Shown here piece after piece: positions 12,462 to 22,145 of a stretch of DNA of 64,000 nucleotides. The notes beneath the pieces are model-generated. The model was not told the origin of the DNA, searched no databases, and saw only the letters and a program-made list of their open reading frames with translations. Position 1 is the stretch's first letter; every line of letters begins with the position of its first letter. The position numbers and the translations under genes were made by a program. The stretch lies in NCBI RefSeq assembly GCF_020622065.1, contig NZ_JAHRYQ010000001.1, positions 1-64,000 on the forward strand, in the 5' to 3' direction. The DNA comes from Geothrix sp. Lineage in GTDB: Bacteria > Acidobacteriota > Holophagae > Holophagales > Holophagaceae.

Positions 12462-13097
12462 TCAGGGTTCCAGGTGGATGAGGCCGCGGCGGAGGGCCAC
12501 CACGGCGGCTTCGGTGCGATCCTTCACCTGGAGCTTGCGGAGCAGGTTGTTCACATGGATCTTCACGGTGGGCTCGGCCAACCCCAGGTTCTCGGCGATT
12601 TCCCGATTCCGCTGTCCCAGGGCCAGGAGGCGCAGCACATCGAGCTCCCGCGGCGTCAGGCGTTCGGCCTCCATGGCCTCCACCAGCCGGGCGGCGGTGG
12701 CGGGCGGCAGGTAGCGCTGGCCGGACGCCACGGCCCGCACGGCCTCGATGAGCGTGGCGCGCCGGACGCTCTTCAGCAGGTAACCCCGGGCCCCGGCCTC
12801 GAGGGCGCGCTGGATGTCCGCGTCCCCGTCGAAGGTGGTGAGCACCAGCACCCGGGCTTCGGGATCTTCGCGCCGGATGGCGATGATGGCTTCCACGCCC
12901 GACTGGCCCGGCAGCTGAAGGTCCATGATGGTGACCGTGGGCTTCAGGGTGCGCCAGGCCGTCACGGCCTCGCGGCCGTCCCCGGCCTCGCCGACCACTT
13001 CCAGATCGGGTTCCCCCTGATGGAGGATGGCGACGAGCCCATCCCGCACGACGGGGTGGTCATCCACGATGAGCAGCGTGATGGGGGTCGCGGTCAT
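12462..13097 (-). CDS. NarL/LuxR-type response regulator
   Basis: 211 residues. Receiver domain with acidic pocket VDDHP, phospho-acceptor Asp59 (VTIMDLQLPG) and Lys in YLLKSV; C-terminal LuxR-type HTH (about 145-211, LTPRELDVLRLLALGQRNRE...TVKIHVNNLLRKL). The ATG at 13097 overlaps the stop of the upstream kinase (ATGA), the usual coupled arrangement; a GTG nine bases further upstream is an alternative. It should be phosphorylated by the kinase at 13094-16075 and bind DNA as a dimer. Its targets are unknown, but the pair diverges from the cytochrome cluster, making that cluster a reasonable candidate. Confidence 0.95.
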   Translation of the reverse strand: MTATPITLLIVDDHPVVRDGLVAILHQGEPDLEVVGEAGDGREAVTAWRTLKPTVTIMDLQLPGQSGVEAIIAIRREDPEARVLVLTTFDGDADIQRALEAGARGYLLKSVRRATLIEAVRAVASGQRYLPPATAARLVEAMEAERLTPRELDVLRLLALGQRNREIAENLGLAEPTVKIHVNNLLRKLQVKDRTEAAVVALRRGLIHLEP

Positions 13098-16075
13098 AGG
13101 TGCCACCTTTGGGTGGGAAGGGTGATGGTGATGCGGGTGCCGAGCCCCGGACTGCTGTCGATGTCGATGCGCCCCCGCAGCTGGCGGACGCTTTCCCGGA
13201 TGCTGCGCATGCCGTAGCCCGCCGCGTCGGCGGAAGGGTCGAAGCCCTGCCCATCATCCTCGATGTTGAGGCGGACCTGGCGCCCTTCGTACTGCAGCAC
13301 CACCCGCACCCAGCGGGCCTTGCCGTGGCGCAGGGCATTCGTGAGCGCCTCCTGGGCCATGCGGAGCAGCTCCTCCTCCACCCGCCGGCCCAGGGGGCGG
13401 GGTTCGCCGGTCTGGGCCAACTCCACCTGGATCTCCGTGCCGGCCAGCAGGCGGTCTGACAGCACGCGCAGGGCGCCCAGGAGGTTCGTGCCCTCGGGCC
13501 GGTGGGGGCGGAGGGCCATGACGGACCTTCGGGCCTCCTGCAGGCTGGCTACGGCCAGCTTGCGGGCATGATCGAGGCGGGTCAGCACGGGCTCCGGGTC
13601 GCCTTGCAGCCGGGCCAGCTTGGCTTCGGCGGCCTCGATCTGCAGCAGCACGCCGGTGAAGCCCTGGGCCAGGTGGTCGTGGATCTCACGGGCCATGCGG
13701 TTGCGCTCGCCCAGCACGGCCGACTTCGCCTCCAGCTGCTGAAGGCGCAGGCGGAGGAGCCACCAGGCGAACGCCCCCGCGCCCAGTGCGCACACCACCC
13801 AGAAGACCGGCCGCTGGTACAGGTAGGGCTGGACATGGACCTCGATGGACTGCTCCTGCGGGGGGCTATCCTCATCGAGCCGCCAGGCCTGGAGGACGAA
13901 CCGGTAGGTCCCCGGCGGCACATTGGAGTAGGCCGAGAACCGGCGGTCGCCCACCTCGTTCCAGATGTGCTCCAGGCCCTCGAGGCGGTAGCGGAAGCGG
14001 ACTTTGTCCGCCCTCGTGAGCGAGGTGGCGGTGTAGTACACCTCGAACCGATGGGTGCCCGGGGGGACCTGGATGGGGACGGTGTCGGGCAGAACCGTCT
14101 CGTCGCTTTCGGCCTTCAGGATGTGGAGGCGCAGCGCGGGGCCGGCCTTGGGCGGGGGCGGGGAGGAAGCCCGGCCGTCCAGCCGCGCAAGCCCGCGGCT
14201 GGTGGGGAAGTACAGGTCGCCTTCGCGGGTGAGCCAAGCCACAGGCTGCGGGCCGTTACGGGTCTCCCGGGAGGGCATGCCATCGTGGTGGTCGAAGACC
14301 ACGGCCGGAATGGAGCCTGCTTCATTGAGGCTCTTGATCAGGGCCGCGCGGGCGATCCGGAAGACGCCCTGCCCGGTGCTCAGCCACATCCGGTGCGCGC
14401 CATCCTCCAGGATGCCGTGGATGGCGAGGAGCAGGGGGCCGGGGCGTTCCCCGAAAGTCTGGAAGATGCCGTCCCGGTACCGCCGCAGGCCCTCCGGGGT
14501 GCCGATCCAGAGGAATCCCTCGGCATCCAGGTGCAGGGACAGGGCGCCACTTGAGCCCAGCCCTTCCGCACGGCCCAACCAGCGCACCGTGCTGGAGTCG
14601 AGAATGCCCAGCCCCTGCGTGCGGCTCACCAGATACAAGGGGGCTGATCCGCCTCCCGTCATGGCGAGGGCACCCTGGACGGCGGGGAACAGAACGGGGG
14701 CGGCGCCTGGTGCGAGCTTGAGCAGGCCCTGGCGGGAGGTGGCGACCCACAGGATGTTCTGCGGATCCTCGTACAGCGACATGATGGCGTCCGGCGAGGG
14801 TCCCTCAGGCCGGCGGACCCGGCGGAACTGGCCTTCGTACCGTTCATACAGCTCGCCGTTGCGGGTGCCCACCCACAGTCCCCCGGCCCGGCGGGGCCAG
14901 ATGGCGGTGATGGGGCCACCGGGGTTTCCCGGGCCCACACGATGGACGCGCCCCTGGCGGATCTCCCCCAGGGACTGGTCTCCCGTGACGCACCAGACGG
15001 TGCCCTGGGCGTCCTGGCAGACCATGAGGGCGGGCTCTTCGAGATCCGCGCCGACCACGGGCAGCGTCTGGAACGGCACGGGGTAGAGCACACGCAGGCC
15101 ACGGCCTTCGGTGCCGGACCACAGGGCACCGGAGCTGTCCTCAAGCAGGGCGAGGGGTGTCCAGCGGGAGCCGGCAGGCGCGGGGGCGGTCTCCAGGGAA
15201 CCGGCTGGCGTCCGGCGGAAGAGGCCGGTCTGTTCGAGCCCGACCCACAGGCTGCCCTGTCGGTCCACGAGCAGGGCACTGATGGCCCGGGGCGGCAGGC
15301 CCTTCGCCCAGGCCGCCGCTTCGAGCCGGCCTTCGGTGAGCGTCAGCAGGCCCTGGGAGCGGGTTCCCACCCAGATCTCCCCTTCGACGCCCGCACCGAG
15401 GGCCGTAATGTCCGTGGAGGCCAGCGCGGCCAGGACCAGCCGTCCTCCCTGGAGGCGCCACAAGCCCGATCCTGCGGTGCCCACCCAGAGTGTCCCGTTC
15501 GGGTCTTCGACGATGGCGCGGATGGTCAGCCGGGCCGCATCCGAGGGTACGGTCTGGAACCGGGTGCCGTCGAACCGGAGCAGGGGTCCCTCCTGGGGGG
15601 CTGCCCAGAGTGTGCCGCTGCGATCCTGGAGCAGGCGCAGGATGGGCTGGTCGGGCAGGCCCTCTGCGGCGCCGAAGGCCCGGACCGCGCCGTCCTGGAA
15701 CCGGTAGAGCCCAGCCTCTGAGGTGCCGATCCAGATGCTGCCACCGGGACCTTCCGCCAGGCAGTGGATCTCGTTGTGTGCGAACCCCGGCACATTGAGG
15801 CGGGAGTAGTGATCGAAGGTGGCGCCGTCGAAGCGGACCAGGCCCGCCTCCGTGCCGATCCACAGGAAGCCGTCCCGGGACTCGAGGAGGGCGGTGGCCG
15901 TGTCCTGGAGGAGGCCATCCTCGCTGCGCCAGAGGTGGCTGGCGTGGGTGGAGAGGGGCCGGGCGGGGTCCAGGGCGAAGCCCGTGACGCTGGCCCAGAG
16001 GCATGGCAGGACGATGACAAGGCGCCGCAAGGCCCCCCGAGGGGAAGGTCGGTTTCCTGCAATCTGCGGGCACAT
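13094..16075 (-). CDS. Two-component propeller sensor histidine kinase (Reg_prop, Y_Y_Y, HisKA_3)
   Basis: 993 residues. An N-terminal signal or anchor segment (RRLVIVLPCLWASVTGFAL, about 17-35) precedes a periplasmic seven-bladed-type propeller region with many repeats of the W(I/V)GT...GL.R.. form (about 40-640). Then come a Y_Y_Y domain (about 655-740, VYYTATSLTRADKVRFRYRL), one transmembrane helix (about 748-770), a HisKA_3 dimerisation domain with His799 (REIHDHLAQGF) and an HATPase domain. Such one-gene sensors often detect polymers or surface conditions. It is coupled to the NarL-type regulator and transcribed away from the multihaem cytochrome gene. Confidence 0.94.
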   Translation of the reverse strand: MCPQIAGNRPSPRGALRRLVIVLPCLWASVTGFALDPARPLSTHASHLWRSEDGLLQDTATALLESRDGFLWIGTEAGLVRFDGATFDHYSRLNVPGFAHNEIHCLAEGPGGSIWIGTSEAGLYRFQDGAVRAFGAAEGLPDQPILRLLQDRSGTLWAAPQEGPLLRFDGTRFQTVPSDAARLTIRAIVEDPNGTLWVGTAGSGLWRLQGGRLVLAALASTDITALGAGVEGEIWVGTRSQGLLTLTEGRLEAAAWAKGLPPRAISALLVDRQGSLWVGLEQTGLFRRTPAGSLETAPAPAGSRWTPLALLEDSSGALWSGTEGRGLRVLYPVPFQTLPVVGADLEEPALMVCQDAQGTVWCVTGDQSLGEIRQGRVHRVGPGNPGGPITAIWPRRAGGLWVGTRNGELYERYEGQFRRVRRPEGPSPDAIMSLYEDPQNILWVATSRQGLLKLAPGAAPVLFPAVQGALAMTGGGSAPLYLVSRTQGLGILDSSTVRWLGRAEGLGSSGALSLHLDAEGFLWIGTPEGLRRYRDGIFQTFGERPGPLLLAIHGILEDGAHRMWLSTGQGVFRIARAALIKSLNEAGSIPAVVFDHHDGMPSRETRNGPQPVAWLTREGDLYFPTSRGLARLDGRASSPPPPKAGPALRLHILKAESDETVLPDTVPIQVPPGTHRFEVYYTATSLTRADKVRFRYRLEGLEHIWNEVGDRRFSAYSNVPPGTYRFVLQAWRLDEDSPPQEQSIEVHVQPYLYQRPVFWVVCALGAGAFAWWLLRLRLQQLEAKSAVLGERNRMAREIHDHLAQGFTGVLLQIEAAEAKLARLQGDPEPVLTRLDHARKLAVASLQEARRSVMALRPHRPEGTNLLGALRVLSDRLLAGTEIQVELAQTGEPRPLGRRVEEELLRMAQEALTNALRHGKARWVRVVLQYEGRQVRLNIEDDGQGFDPSADAAGYGMRSIRESVRQLRGRIDIDSSPGLGTRITITLPTQRWHL

Positions 16076-16366
16076 GGAAGCTGAAGATTAGGCCATCGGG
16101 CCGACCGGATCAACGGAGAAGGCGGTAGATCGTTCGATCTAAAAGTAAGGATCCAATCGGGATATGGGCGCCAGGAAGCCGTGGGGAGATAGTGATTCAA
16201 TCCACCCGCGGTCCCGATGTCTCGACCGAAGCTTCGCACTTCTCGGGGATTCCCCTTGCCCTGATCTTCCCGTTGCAAATCGGTGGCATATATTTGGATC
16301 CTCCATCCCCTTCCGAGCTCCACCGCCAACCTCCTCCGCCACGAGTCGCATTCCCTGGGTGTCGCC
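16076..16366. other. Divergent intergenic region between sensor kinase and cytochrome cluster
   Basis: About 290 bases without a supportable gene. It holds a 16-base near-perfect palindrome at 16126-16141 and an AT-rich TATATTT element at 16289-16295 that could serve as a -10 for the cytochrome gene, but no matching -35 hexamer is visible at 16-18 bases. An in-frame extension of the cytochrome ORF to 16283 lacks a signal peptide context and is not used. Confidence 0.6.
16126..16141. promoter_or_regulatory. Palindrome TAGATCG-TT-CGATCTA, possible operator
   Basis: Two perfect 7-base arms around TT in the divergent region, about 50 bases upstream of the propeller kinase and 225 upstream of the cytochrome start. 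Symmetry fits a dimeric regulator such as the adjacent NarL-type protein, but no other copy was compared. Confidence 0.35.
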
Positions 16367-19300
16367 ATGAACAGGACTTGGAATTGGAACCGGACGATGG
16401 GGCTTCTGGGTGGTCTGGCCTTCGCCTTGCTCCTGGTCCTGGTGGGCTGCGGGAGCGGCAAGGGGGCCGCCGGGGTCACTCAATACTATGGGAACTACCA
16501 CCCGGCCGGCTGGATCGGCAACCACGCCGGACAGGCCGTGGCGGGGGTGGATGCCTGCACCAAGTGTCATGAGATCTCCGTCCTCAAGGTCGGCAGCGGG
16601 GTGCCCACCTGCATGACCACGGGCTGCCACCACCAGACCGTTTCCGGATGGGCCGATCCGGCCATCCACGGGGTGCGCGCCAAGATGGCCGCGAGCACCG
16701 TGACCGGCGGAAGCCTCGTCTCCTGCCAGATCTGCCACGGGAAGGCGTTTGCCGGCGGAGGCTCCGCCAATGCCTGCGTCACCTGCCACGGTGTCAGCGC
16801 GCCGCATCCGCCGAAGCCCTGGCGCACCACGGGCGGCACCGTCTTCACCCACATCACCACCGATCCGTCCAATGCCGCCGTCTGCGCCCAGTGCCATTTC
16901 GCCGGATCGCCCAGCAATCCCATCGGGCATCCCGCCACGCCCGCGCCCGCCGGCACCCAGCCCGGCTGCTACAACGCGACCCTCTGCCACGGCGCCAACG
17001 CCGCGCCGCACCCGGTTCCGTTCCTGGTGGGTCAGACCGACTCCCAGCTGAACGGACACATGACCGTCACGGCGGCAGCCTTCGCCGCGGACTGCGCCAG
17101 CTGCCACGCCTATTCGGGCACTTCCCCCACGGCTTCCGCGCCGCTCTGCAACACCTGCCACCAGCTGGCGGATCCCACCGCGGCCGGCACCAATGCCGGA
17201 ACCTGCCTCTCCTGCCACGCCGGCACGGCGGGCCTGCCCAAGGGGCCCGGCGGCACGGGCTTCCCCAGCATCGCCGGGGCCCACGCCAAGCACATGGCAC
17301 TGGCCACTGCGCTGAGCTGCGACACCTGCCATGCGGGCAGCGGGACGGGAACCACCACCCACTACACGAATGCCAACGCGCGCATCGGCGTGCCGACAAG
17401 CCCCGCCAGCGTCTCGATGGATCCGATCTTCATGGCCAAGACCGGGGGCAACCCGTCCTTCAATCCATCTGCGCTCACCTGCTCCAATGTGAGCTGCCAC
17501 GGCGGCCAGGTCACGCCGGGCTGGCAGAACGGAACCATCAACTCCGCAACCCAGTGCACCGCCTGCCACGCGGTGGCCACCAGTGCCGGGACGGCGACCC
17601 AGTTCAATGACGCCTTCGGCCGGCACAGCATCGGCACCCACAATGCCACGGTGCCCGCCAACGCCATCGCCTGCACCACCTGCCACAACATGGGGAACGG
17701 TTCGCCCGGAGCCCTGGCCCACTTCAAGTATCTCAACACGGGGGCCGTGGACGGTCTCTCCACCGGCACCCCGGCGGATCAGCTGCCCAGCGGCACCATC
17801 GTCTTCGACCCCGCCATCGTCTCGGCCCCCGGGACCTACACGGTCACGAGCGCCACCCAGGGCAACGGCGGCTGCGCCCTCACCTGCCACAGCCACATCC
17901 ACACGGTGTCGTTCGATACCTGGACCGCCAGCGGGGCACCGCATCCCGTGCCCTTCCTGGGCAACCAGGTCGATACGCAGAACAACGGCCACCTGACGGC
18001 CACCCAGGCCACCTTTGCGGCGGATTGCGGCACCTGCCATGCCGTTTCCGGCACCTCGCCCGTGGCGGGCAGCCCCCTCTGCGCCACCTGTCACACCCTG
18101 GCCGATCCCACCGTGGCCGCGACCGGGACGGGCACCTGTCTGTCCTGCCATGTGGGCCCCTCGGGGATTCCGGCCGGTCCCACCGGCACCGCCTTCCCCA
18201 ACATCGCCGGCGCCCATGCCAAGCACATGGGGCTGCCCACCGTGCTGAAGTGCGACACCTGCCACGCCGGCAGCGGGACGGGCACGACGACCCACTACAA
18301 CAACGCCAACGCCCGGGTCACGGCCCCGGTAGGCCCGGCCCCGGTGAGCATGGATGCCACCTTCAACGCGCAGAGCGGCGGATCGGCCTCCTTCAATCCC
18401 ACCGCGCTCACCTGCTCCGCCTCGAGCTGCCATGGCGGCCAGGTGACGCCCAACTGGCGCACTGGCACCATCACCTCCACCTCCCAGTGCTCGCTCTGCC
18501 ACGCGATCAACGGCGGCACCGCGACCTCCCAGTACAACGACGCCGTCGGGCGCCACGCCTGGGGCACGCACGCCACCGCCGCCACGCTGGACTGCACCCT
18601 CTGCCACGACATGACCTCCGCCAACACTAGCGGTGGCGCGGTCAACCACTTCGCCGAGCTCAACACCCCCGCCGTCAGCAGCACGAACAAGCTGCCCAGC
18701 GGCACGATCAAGTTCAAGCTCACCAACACCACCTATCCGATCACCGGGGCCGCGACCTACACCATCAACGCCACGACCCCCGAAGGGGACGGTGGCTGCG
18801 CCCTCACCTGCCACAGCCAAGTCCACAATGCCGTCGATAACCACTGGAACGCCCCCAAGGGCTCCGGGATCGCCCACCCCGTGCCCTTCCTGAGCACCGA
18901 TGTCAGCAGCGCAGGCAACCACCACCAGACCCTGACACTCGCCCAGTTCAACGGCGAATGCATCAACTGCCACGATCAGAGCGGGACCACCACCAAGAGC
19001 GGACCCGTGTGCACGGTCTGCCACACCCTTGGTTCCCCCGTGGCCGCGGGCATGACGGCGGGCACCTGCCTCTCCTGCCATGTGGGCGCCAGCTTCACCA
19101 CCCAGGGCCCGACCGGCACCGCCTGGCCGAACCTGCAGGGCTCCCACCCCAAGCACCTCTCCCTGCTCACTTTCACCCGCACCTCACCGGCCCTGCCCGC
19201 GTCGATGACGGCCTCGGCCTATCCGGATTGCGCGGCCTGCCACGCGGGTTCCGTGCCCGGAGATCCGGCCCAGACGCACTACAGCAATGCCAACAAGCGT

Positions 19301-19837
19301 CTGGCCTCGCCGATCACGGCCGGCCCCGCCTCGGTGGCGATCGATCCGGCGTTCAATGCCAAGAGCGGGACGGCCGGCACCACCGCCAGCGCCTCAGCCT
19401 TCACCTGCTCCAATGTGAGCTGCCACGGCGGCCAGACCACGCCCGGATGGCAGACCGGCACCCTGACCGTGAACGCCACCACCTACTGCATCGCCTGCCA
19501 CAAGGTGGCTTCCACGGCCACGCAGTTCAACGACGCCACGGGCCGTCACAACAACCCGAGCCAGCACAACCAGACCTGCGACTACTGCCATGTCATGACG
19601 CAGGCCACACCCGGGGCCCTGAACCACTTCAAGTACCTCGACACCTCCGCCGTCAGCGGCGTCAGTGGCACGCCTTCCGATCAGTACCCCAGCGACACCG
19701 TGAAGTTCGGCGGCGGCGCCACCCCGGCCACGGGCGCGCTCACCTACACCGTCACCTCGGCCACGCAGGGCCGCGGGGGCTGTGCCCTCACCTGCCACGG
19801 GCAATCGCACACCACGGCGGGCAACACCTGGAACTGA
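16367..19837 (+). CDS. Giant multihaem c-type cytochrome lipoprotein, 30 haem-type motifs
   Basis: 1156 residues. The ATG at 16367 gives a lipoprotein signal: basic N-terminus, hydrophobic core GLLGGLAFALLLVLVGC, lipobox Cys28. I count 30 motifs ending in CH: 22 CX2CH, 4 CX4CH (for example CSNVSCH), 3 CX3CH (each CALTCH) and 1 CX5CH (CYNATLCH). Six lie in the N-terminal part. The other 24 lie in three tandem units of 311, 311 and 320 residues, each starting at HPVPF (residues 215, 526, 837) with eight motifs in the same order. The type is the CX4CH/CX2CH family known from Geobacter. Conserved extra histidines (HAKHM, THY, GRH) can supply distal ligands. A cell-surface or periplasmic electron carrier is likely; the lipid anchor and downstream barrel suggest the outer membrane. 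Actual haem number needs measurement. Confidence 0.93.
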   Translation: MNRTWNWNRTMGLLGGLAFALLLVLVGCGSGKGAAGVTQYYGNYHPAGWIGNHAGQAVAGVDACTKCHEISVLKVGSGVPTCMTTGCHHQTVSGWADPAIHGVRAKMAASTVTGGSLVSCQICHGKAFAGGGSANACVTCHGVSAPHPPKPWRTTGGTVFTHITTDPSNAAVCAQCHFAGSPSNPIGHPATPAPAGTQPGCYNATLCHGANAAPHPVPFLVGQTDSQLNGHMTVTAAAFAADCASCHAYSGTSPTASAPLCNTCHQLADPTAAGTNAGTCLSCHAGTAGLPKGPGGTGFPSIAGAHAKHMALATALSCDTCHAGSGTGTTTHYTNANARIGVPTSPASVSMDPIFMAKTGGNPSFNPSALTCSNVSCHGGQVTPGWQNGTINSATQCTACHAVATSAGTATQFNDAFGRHSIGTHNATVPANAIACTTCHNMGNGSPGALAHFKYLNTGAVDGLSTGTPADQLPSGTIVFDPAIVSAPGTYTVTSATQGNGGCALTCHSHIHTVSFDTWTASGAPHPVPFLGNQVDTQNNGHLTATQATFAADCGTCHAVSGTSPVAGSPLCATCHTLADPTVAATGTGTCLSCHVGPSGIPAGPTGTAFPNIAGAHAKHMGLPTVLKCDTCHAGSGTGTTTHYNNANARVTAPVGPAPVSMDATFNAQSGGSASFNPTALTCSASSCHGGQVTPNWRTGTITSTSQCSLCHAINGGTATSQYNDAVGRHAWGTHATAATLDCTLCHDMTSANTSGGAVNHFAELNTPAVSSTNKLPSGTIKFKLTNTTYPITGAATYTINATTPEGDGGCALTCHSQVHNAVDNHWNAPKGSGIAHPVPFLSTDVSSAGNHHQTLTLAQFNGECINCHDQSGTTTKSGPVCTVCHTLGSPVAAGMTAGTCLSCHVGASFTTQGPTGTAWPNLQGSHPKHLSLLTFTRTSPALPASMTASAYPDCAACHAGSVPGDPAQTHYSNANKRLASPITAGPASVAIDPAFNAKSGTAGTTASASAFTCSNVSCHGGQTTPGWQTGTLTVNATTYCIACHKVASTATQFNDATGRHNNPSQHNQTCDYCHVMTQATPGALNHFKYLDTSAVSGVSGTPSDQYPSDTVKFGGGATPATGALTYTVTSATQGRGGCALTCHGQSHTTAGNTWN
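17009..19837 (+). repeat. Three tandem coding repeats, 311-320 codons each
   Basis: Unit 1 spans 17009-17941, unit 2 17942-18874, unit 3 18875-19837. Units 1 and 2 are exactly 933 bases. Each begins with HPVPF and encodes motifs in the order CX2CH x4, CX4CH, CX2CH x2, CX3CH, with shared blocks such as GTCLSCH, GTTTHY.NANAR and CHGGQVTP. Internal protein duplication rather than a mobile repeat. Confidence 0.9.
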
Positions 19838-21128: not shown

Positions 21129-22145
21129 ATGTCCGCTTCACCCCTTCTGGAATTCGTCGCCCGCGAGCATCCGGCCTTCGTCCACATCCCCCTCGGGCTG
21201 GTGGCGGTGCTGCCCCTGGCGATGCTGGCCTCCTTTCATCCCAAGCATGTCCGTCTGTGGACGGGCACTTCATTCTTCCTCGCCCTCGTGGGCTGGCTGG
21301 GCAGCACGGCAGCCCTGTTTAGCGGCCTGATCTGGGGCCGCCAGATCGCCCTCATCCCGCCGAAGGGGTTCTTCCCGGTCGTGGCCACCGAGAAGCAGGT
21401 GCTGCAGCGCATCCTCCAGGTCCATGAGATGGCGGCCCTGAGCGGCTTCCTCATCGGCGGCTTCTGCGTCTGGCTTCTCTGGGGCTCCTGGCGCCAGGTG
21501 GAGGCCCACGACGGCGCCACCCACCGGAGGCACGGAGGCCGCCGTTTCTGGGAACGCGGCGTGGGGGCCGCGCCCCTCCTGGTGGGCGTTCTCTGGCTGG
21601 CCTGTTGGGGGCTCAGCGGCAAGCTGGGGGGCGTGATGGTCTTCGGAAGCGAGGAGACCAACCGGGCCGCAGCCGAGGCGGACGCCGCCAAGCATGCGGA
21701 CGCCGAGGCCGACCTGCCCATCCGGGCCCTGGATTACGCGAGCCTCGAGCCCATCACTCCGGAGCCGGTGCGGAGCAAGGCCCATGGAAACCGCTGGCGG
21801 CGCATCTGGGTCACGGCCTCCGGCGCCGATGCCTACCAGGCGGGCAAGCCCCTGCCCCCGGGGGCCTATGCCGTGATGTCGACCTTTGAGGACGACAAGG
21901 GCAAGCCCAGCCATGAGCCGGGCCCCCTCTACATGAAGGAGACGAAGGCTGATGGCAGCACGGCCTTCGCGTTCTACTGGCCCCGGGTGCCCGAGGCGCT
22001 GCGCAAGGACATGGAGAACCAGGACAGCGTCTACTGGCGGAGTCCCGATTCCCATCTCGCGGTCTGTCTCGGCTGCCACGAGAAGAAATCGGCGCCGGCC
22101 CAGCCACTTACGGCAGGTAGTGCTGGGGGTCCGGGAAAGCGCTGA
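21129..22145 (+). CDS. DUF2231-like membrane protein with C-terminal P460-like haem domain
   Basis: 338 residues. The N-terminal 165 form about four membrane helices beginning HPAFVHIPLGLVAVLPLAMLA, the DUF2231-type HPxxVHxP entry, with another histidine in LQVHEMAALSGF. A charged linker leads to a soluble domain (about 215-325) with GNRWRRIWVTASGADAYQAG, LPPGAYAVM, GPLYMKE and WRSPDSHLAVCLGCHEKK, which resembles cytochrome P460 including the terminal CXXCH. It could be the inner-membrane entry point for electrons in this cluster. Its 3' end overlaps the convergent kinase gene by 38 bases. Domain names are from recognition by eye. Confidence 0.78.
   Translation: MSASPLLEFVAREHPAFVHIPLGLVAVLPLAMLASFHPKHVRLWTGTSFFLALVGWLGSTAALFSGLIWGRQIALIPPKGFFPVVATEKQVLQRILQVHEMAALSGFLIGGFCVWLLWGSWRQVEAHDGATHRRHGGRRFWERGVGAAPLLVGVLWLACWGLSGKLGGVMVFGSEETNRAAAEADAAKHADAEADLPIRALDYASLEPITPEPVRSKAHGNRWRRIWVTASGADAYQAGKPLPPGAYAVMSTFEDDKGKPSHEPGPLYMKETKADGSTAFAFYWPRVPEALRKDMENQDSVYWRSPDSHLAVCLGCHEKKSAPAQPLTAGSAGGPGKR

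Follow-up and report, generated by a model that had tools for sequence, protein, structure and literature searches.

The 64,000-nt stretch of a Geothrix contig analysed here (the window) encodes a putative cytochrome in which three tandem modules each end in a CX3CH motif, raising the question of whether haem is attached there or whether the motif is a metal or structural site, and of what a protein built in this way might do. The translated frame from 16283 to 19837 contains 30 CXnCH motifs in the order given by an earlier, sequence-only reading. An in-frame GTG lies at 16283, upstream of an ATG at 16367; the ATG (MNRTWNWNRTMG) is the likely start, and the MNR with which it begins is common to the relative loci L070 and L010 (in L010 as MNRNRNWNQQ), both of which also have a lipobox like LVGC. 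The signal peptide terminates in the lipobox LVGC, and the product is therefore a predicted lipoprotein of 1,129 mature residues, or about 38 residues per CXnCH motif. With 30 such motifs and a lipoprotein signal in one exported protein, it classes by sequence as a c-type multihaem cytochrome. Its composition is very odd, with 4 Glu in the 1,129 mature residues, few Arg, and abundant Ala, Thr, Gly and Ser. No GEMM-type riboswitch was found upstream of the gene (zero Rfam matches across the 64,000-nt window), and a promoter and terminator scan gave nothing above chance.

The motifs form a head and three octahaem modules (Table 1). Between 17009 and the stop lie 943 residues in tandem units of 311, 311 and 320, with 311 and 311 residues between the first motifs of successive units, and each of the three copies has four CX2, one CX4, two CX2 and one CX3 motif, the last always CALTCH; unit lengths and motif order are those that the sequence-only reading had described. 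The CALTCH coding pattern has just these three matches in the 3.35-Mb genome. That reading also reached 30 motifs by adding six at the N terminus, a count that holds, and it left unreported the CX4CH (CMTTGCH, at 16610) and the CX5CH (CYNATLCH) among those six. The head order 2-4-2-2-2-5 is kept in nearly all complete relatives, and CYNATLCH directly precedes PHPVPFL, just as CALTCH stands before the PHPVPFL of the next module.

Table 1. Features of the multihaem cytochrome locus, in window coordinates.
Feature	Position	Strand	Basis or remark
LuxR-type response regulator	12462..13106	-	Conserved beside sensor kinase
Divergent two-component propeller sensor kinase	13094..16075	-	Pfam Reg_prop, HisKA_3
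30-motif multihaem c-type cytochrome gene	16367..19837	+	1156 aa from ATG; translation
Predicted lipoprotein signal peptide, lipobox LVGC	16367..16450	+	Lipid Cys 16448-16450, then Gly; sequence
Head module, 6 motifs (CX2, CX4, CX2, CX2, CX2, CX5)	16556..16990	+	Translation; 7 conserved free His
CX5CH closing head (CYNATLCH)	16967..16990	+	Relatives mostly C[YF]NxT[LM]CH
Octahaem module 1	17015..17926	+	Parsing of modules with relatives
Internal CX4CH of module 1 (CSNVSCH)	17480..17500	+	Translation; TIGR01904 matches here
Closing CX3CH (CALTCH), module 1	17873..17890	+	Translation and genome pattern search
Octahaem module 2	17924..18850	+	Parsing of modules with relatives
Closing CX3CH (CALTCH), module 2	18797..18814	+	Translation and genome pattern search
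Octahaem module 3	18857..19834	+	Parsing of modules with relatives
Closing CX3CH (CALTCH), module 3	19781..19798	+	Translation and genome pattern search
Internal CX4CH of other modules	18413-18433 and 19406-19426	+	Translation
Monohaem cytochrome c (CARCH), 118 aa	19877..20233	+	Pfam Cytochrome_CBB3; next gene in 24 relatives
DUF5777 membrane beta-barrel protein, 289 aa	20247..21116	+	Pfam PF19089; conserved neighbour
Membrane cytochrome, one CLGCH	21129..22145	+	Conserved neighbour

Genes for a monohaem cytochrome c, a DUF5777 barrel and a membrane cytochrome follow after gaps of 39, 13 and 12 bases, respectively, and the same three trail the multihaem gene in 24 relatives. The DUF5777 family is here tied to a multihaem cytochrome operon; among the papers searched, none deals with this cytochrome and none names DUF5777. 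The membrane protein is weakly DUF2231-like in its N-terminal part and weakly cytochrome P460-like in its C-terminal domain, both below curated cut-offs, and has a 39% paralogue elsewhere in the genome (G000:C2:918137-919063). Upstream, the sensor kinase and response regulator are divergent from the multihaem gene in many relatives as well, an arrangement in which they probably control the operon. Profile searches placed the cytochrome above curated cut-offs for Pfam Cytochrome_C7, for MtrC/MtrF domain II/IV (50.7 bits against 30) and for NCBIfam TIGR01904 (54.8 bits against 27, in three stretches), and detected similarity to UndA. The MtrC/MtrF domain II/IV profile also matches 30/74 single modules at E 0.01 or better, and a phmmer search of the cytochrome against the PDB gave no meaningful match.

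We consider it likely that the protein as a whole is an outer-surface lipoprotein conduit, consisting of a six-haem head and three octahaem modules with haem on every CXnCH. Each motif, CX3CH included, would bear a covalent and mostly bis-histidine haem. Electrons would run from the membrane cytochrome through the monohaem cytochrome and the DUF5777 barrel to the lipoprotein, then along its 30 haems to an extracellular acceptor, for example Fe(III) or humics. Haem occupancy, surface location, electron route and acceptors are all points that we infer. The signs of a surface conduit are the lipobox, the conserved barrel operon and the similarity to UndA and MtrC/MtrF, and an outer-surface electron conduit is accordingly a reasonably probable role. 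The main competitor is a cytochrome that stores charge or works in the periplasm, with no surface conduit. Such a role would suit the small size of the barrel and its partners and the single haem of the likely periplasmic partner, and what very large multihaem proteins do is for the most part unproven (PMC7096707); a role of this kind is nevertheless unlikely, given a lipobox without Asp at +2, an operon with a membrane beta barrel, and the similarity to UndA and MtrC/MtrF domains.

Relatives of the cytochrome are confined to one family in the genomes scanned. A public-genome scan recovered 16 related loci, every one from Geothrix or Holophagaceae, and a family scan with the module alignment found matches in 32/61 genomes; 20 further relative loci were added and all proteins were parsed into modules. 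Across 297 genomes of the phylum, no strong module matches were found outside the Holophagaceae, and weak matches elsewhere were rejected as proteins with CX2CH alone. The membrane cytochrome has an orthologue, at 62 to 100% identity, in 16 of the 18 phylum-sample genomes with strong module matches. Of the two exceptions, G007 is fragmented, and G050 has its modules in a paralogue that is not part of the operon. Members of the genus without modules (G014, G032, G038, G040 and G049) have just a 40 to 49% paralogue of the membrane cytochrome. At the conserved operon, the number of motifs is 14, 18, 20, 22, 26, 30, 34, 40, 42 or 50, depending on the relative (the first CCH of L069 was left out of the counts). 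A tree of 104 modules gives separate clades for first, for second and for last modules, each drawn from different species; the modules are therefore old, and it was mainly inner ones that were copied during expansion. Giant paralogues also occur in Holophagaceae outside the operon, with 72 motifs in L015 (4656-12671, 2672 aa) and 54 in L014 and L072; since 86 CXXCH motifs have been reported (PMC7096707), the 72-motif protein is no record.

The parsed set contains 107 distinct octahaem modules from Geothrix and other Holophagaceae, and in 107/107 the closing motif retains its two Cys and its His. The closing pattern is thus real rather than due to chance. The sequence-only reading had argued that a CX3CH fixed in all three copies is functional and had asked for an alignment of the CALTCH site across homologues; the alignment showed no loss of Cys or His in any module and supports that argument. 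Only the residues between the Cys vary (CALT, CALS, CTLT, CALA, CALI, CAVV and so on), as does their number, with CX3 in 92 modules, CX4 in 9 (CGTFTCH and similar), CX7 in 5 (for example, CGSGGAFSCH and CTPTTTTGCH) and CX9 in 1. Inner CX3, CX4 and CX7 closings are alike followed by xxxH, W and HxVP, and this shared downstream context identifies them as one homologous place. The closing motif is CX9 or CX14 in short modules of four motifs and CX5 in heads.

Spacing follows position, subject to the main technical caveat that it was taken from the nearest preceding Cys: in all parsed family proteins, every CX3, CX5, CX7, CX9 and CX14 motif closes a module or the protein, CX4CH is internal throughout bar the nine variant closings, and CX2CH is always internal (0/835 at a module end). 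Closings that the regular expression scored as internal were seen by eye to be followed by variant joints (PHPSPF, PHGIPF, PHALG or HPAGW). Among the parsed proteins there was no inner octahaem module without a closing motif, which would show a spacing of 2 at that place, and no complete protein ending one motif short. In three 34-motif relatives outside the operon (L056, L061 and L062), a CX7CH or CX9CH stands at the end of the last module, without the His that usually comes after it. The sequence-only reading had called the CX3CH spacing very unusual, which is too strong, as CXXXCH motifs already figure in the counts of published surveys (PMC11434368, PMC10734462); what the family fixes is the closing position and not the CX3 spacing.

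The closing CX3CH very probably carries haem, given that spacing varies at one place, that free His keep parity with motifs, and that haem on CX3CH has a precedent in MmcA of Methanosarcina acetivorans, where a CXXXCH motif was shown by its mass shift to bear haem (PMC11024163). Conserved free His number 7 for 6 motifs in heads, 4 for 4 in short modules and 9 for 8 in octahaem modules. The short modules have exactly 4 conserved free His in 20/20 sequences; in octahaem modules, eight are present in at least 104/107 and the ninth, which follows the closing motif, in 96/107. If one distal His per haem is assumed, the supply would cover every motif including the closing one, an argument from numbers and not a ligand assignment.

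The alternative that the closing CXnCH is a haem-free structural site, either a disulfide or a Cys2His metal site pinning the module end, draws on a spacing that is never the canonical CX2 and on a structure model of the module (74 sequences, mean pLDDT 68) in which GGCALTC lies in a beta strand with local pLDDT near 80. The strand setting differs from the usual helical CXXCH and is a mild caution, coming from a model that cannot display haem. This medium-confidence model had no Foldseek match in the PDB, and a full-length AlphaFold2 model from 11 sequences reached a mean pLDDT of 26. A disulfide, however, needs no His, and the His beside the second Cys and the Cys themselves are equally invariant; a metal site would hardly tolerate 3 to 14 residues between two of its ligands; the free-His count of the four-motif modules fits exactly only if the CX9 or CX14 site is included; and haems on CX3CH (MmcA) and CX14CH (OmcZ) are already known. 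A haem-free site is thus distinctly improbable, and a haem at the module junction, with a loop of changeable length, is better supported than a metal or disulfide site. Haem could also be held there by a single thioether, to the second Cys, with the first Cys free, oxidised or a spare ligand. Attachment of c-type haem by a single Cys is known in other organisms, and the extra spacing could strain the first thioether, but all 107 modules, with spacings of 3 to 9, keep the first Cys, and MmcA and OmcZ accept haem at such spacings, making this arrangement very unlikely.

The presence of System II ligation genes in this genome agrees with haem attachment. The genome encodes split CcsB (407 aa) and CcsA (590 aa) as well as a fused CcsBA, whereas CcmE, of System I, is absent from 60/61 family genomes. 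The single-contig relatives G043, G053, G015 and G023 have modules and one CcsA-type match each, so a single synthase is probably enough for every spacing, in contrast to CX15CH in Wolinella, which has a special lyase. A special lyase for CX3CH, comparable to CcsA1 for CX15CH in Wolinella, would be a rival on maturation alone and is compatible with haem at the site. In its favour, two System II synthases are present in this genome and such lyases exist elsewhere (PMC6976685), but it is highly doubtful, being weakened by the module-bearing genomes with a single synthase and by the near-absence of CcmE. We note that a ten-haem lipoprotein with a repeated collagen-like GTN stretch near its N terminus adjoins the fused CcsBA gene at locus L082 (G000:C2; 7145-9775 and 4322-6790, both on the minus strand).

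A haem on the closing motif would directly precede the W...PHPVPF start of the next module, so it most likely passes electrons over the joint, and its place at the joint may be why the inter-Cys loop can change length. Coupling of one module to the next by the closing haem is the junction role that we marginally prefer. More tentatively, the family may constitute a length-adjustable haem chain, in which octahaem modules are gained or lost by species (14 to 50 motifs), joint haems have loops of CX3 to CX14 and never the canonical one, and one System II synthase matures them all; this is possible, but we would not yet count on it. If true, the joint haems would couple modules electronically or act as an exit to soluble acceptors. 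What is new here is the position rule and the length series, CX3CH as such being already known. The modules offer a natural series of spacings at one putative haem site (3, 4, 7 and 9, with 5, 9 and 14 at equivalent module ends), so that close homologues can be used to test how much spacing System II ligation tolerates and what long-spaced haem motifs do. The extracellular respiration chain of Geothrix-type bacteria is poorly known, and within a single conserved operon of theirs the family would also supply conduits of differing length.

Several known systems share part of this architecture. MmcA likewise mixes CXXCH, CXXXCH and CXXXXCH in one protein (PMC11024163), but it is archaeal and has seven haems, with one CX3CH that is not at the end of a repeated module. 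In OmcZ, a nanowire cytochrome of Geobacter sulfurreducens, haem 1 is attached to CX14CH and the loop is part of the subunit interface (PMC9473688); as cited in a further report, removal of the loop impaired reduction of soluble acceptors (PMC11208441). The parallel is a long-spaced motif at an interface, here the module joints, and no homology is claimed: OmcZ is a polymer of separate subunits, whereas the modules here are covalently joined, and OmcZ was not among the PDB sequence matches of the cytochrome. The MccA/SirA sulfite reductases have haem on a long-spaced CX15CH, for which Wolinella uses a special lyase (PMC6976685); they are catalytic octahaem enzymes, and no special lyase is indicated for the cytochrome here. 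Geobacter CxxxxCH/CxxCH cytochromes (TIGR01904 / PF09698) have a similar CSNVSCHGG...CxxCH segment, but that domain spans motifs 5 and 6 of a module only, without the CX3CH closing or the octahaem order. MtrC, MtrF, OmcA and UndA are surface lipoproteins to which the profile matches (domains II/IV and UndA) point, but their ten or eleven haems are shared between two haem domains, which alternate with two split barrels, in contrast to 30 motifs of mixed spacing in a head and three modules, with no split-barrel domain among the Pfam matches. Porin-cytochrome complexes (Pcc/Mtr) place a periplasmic multihaem cytochrome in a large porin, while this operon has only a monohaem cytochrome and a 289-residue barrel; shared with them is a barrel encoded together with a predicted outer-surface multihaem cytochrome, here the DUF5777 protein two genes downstream.
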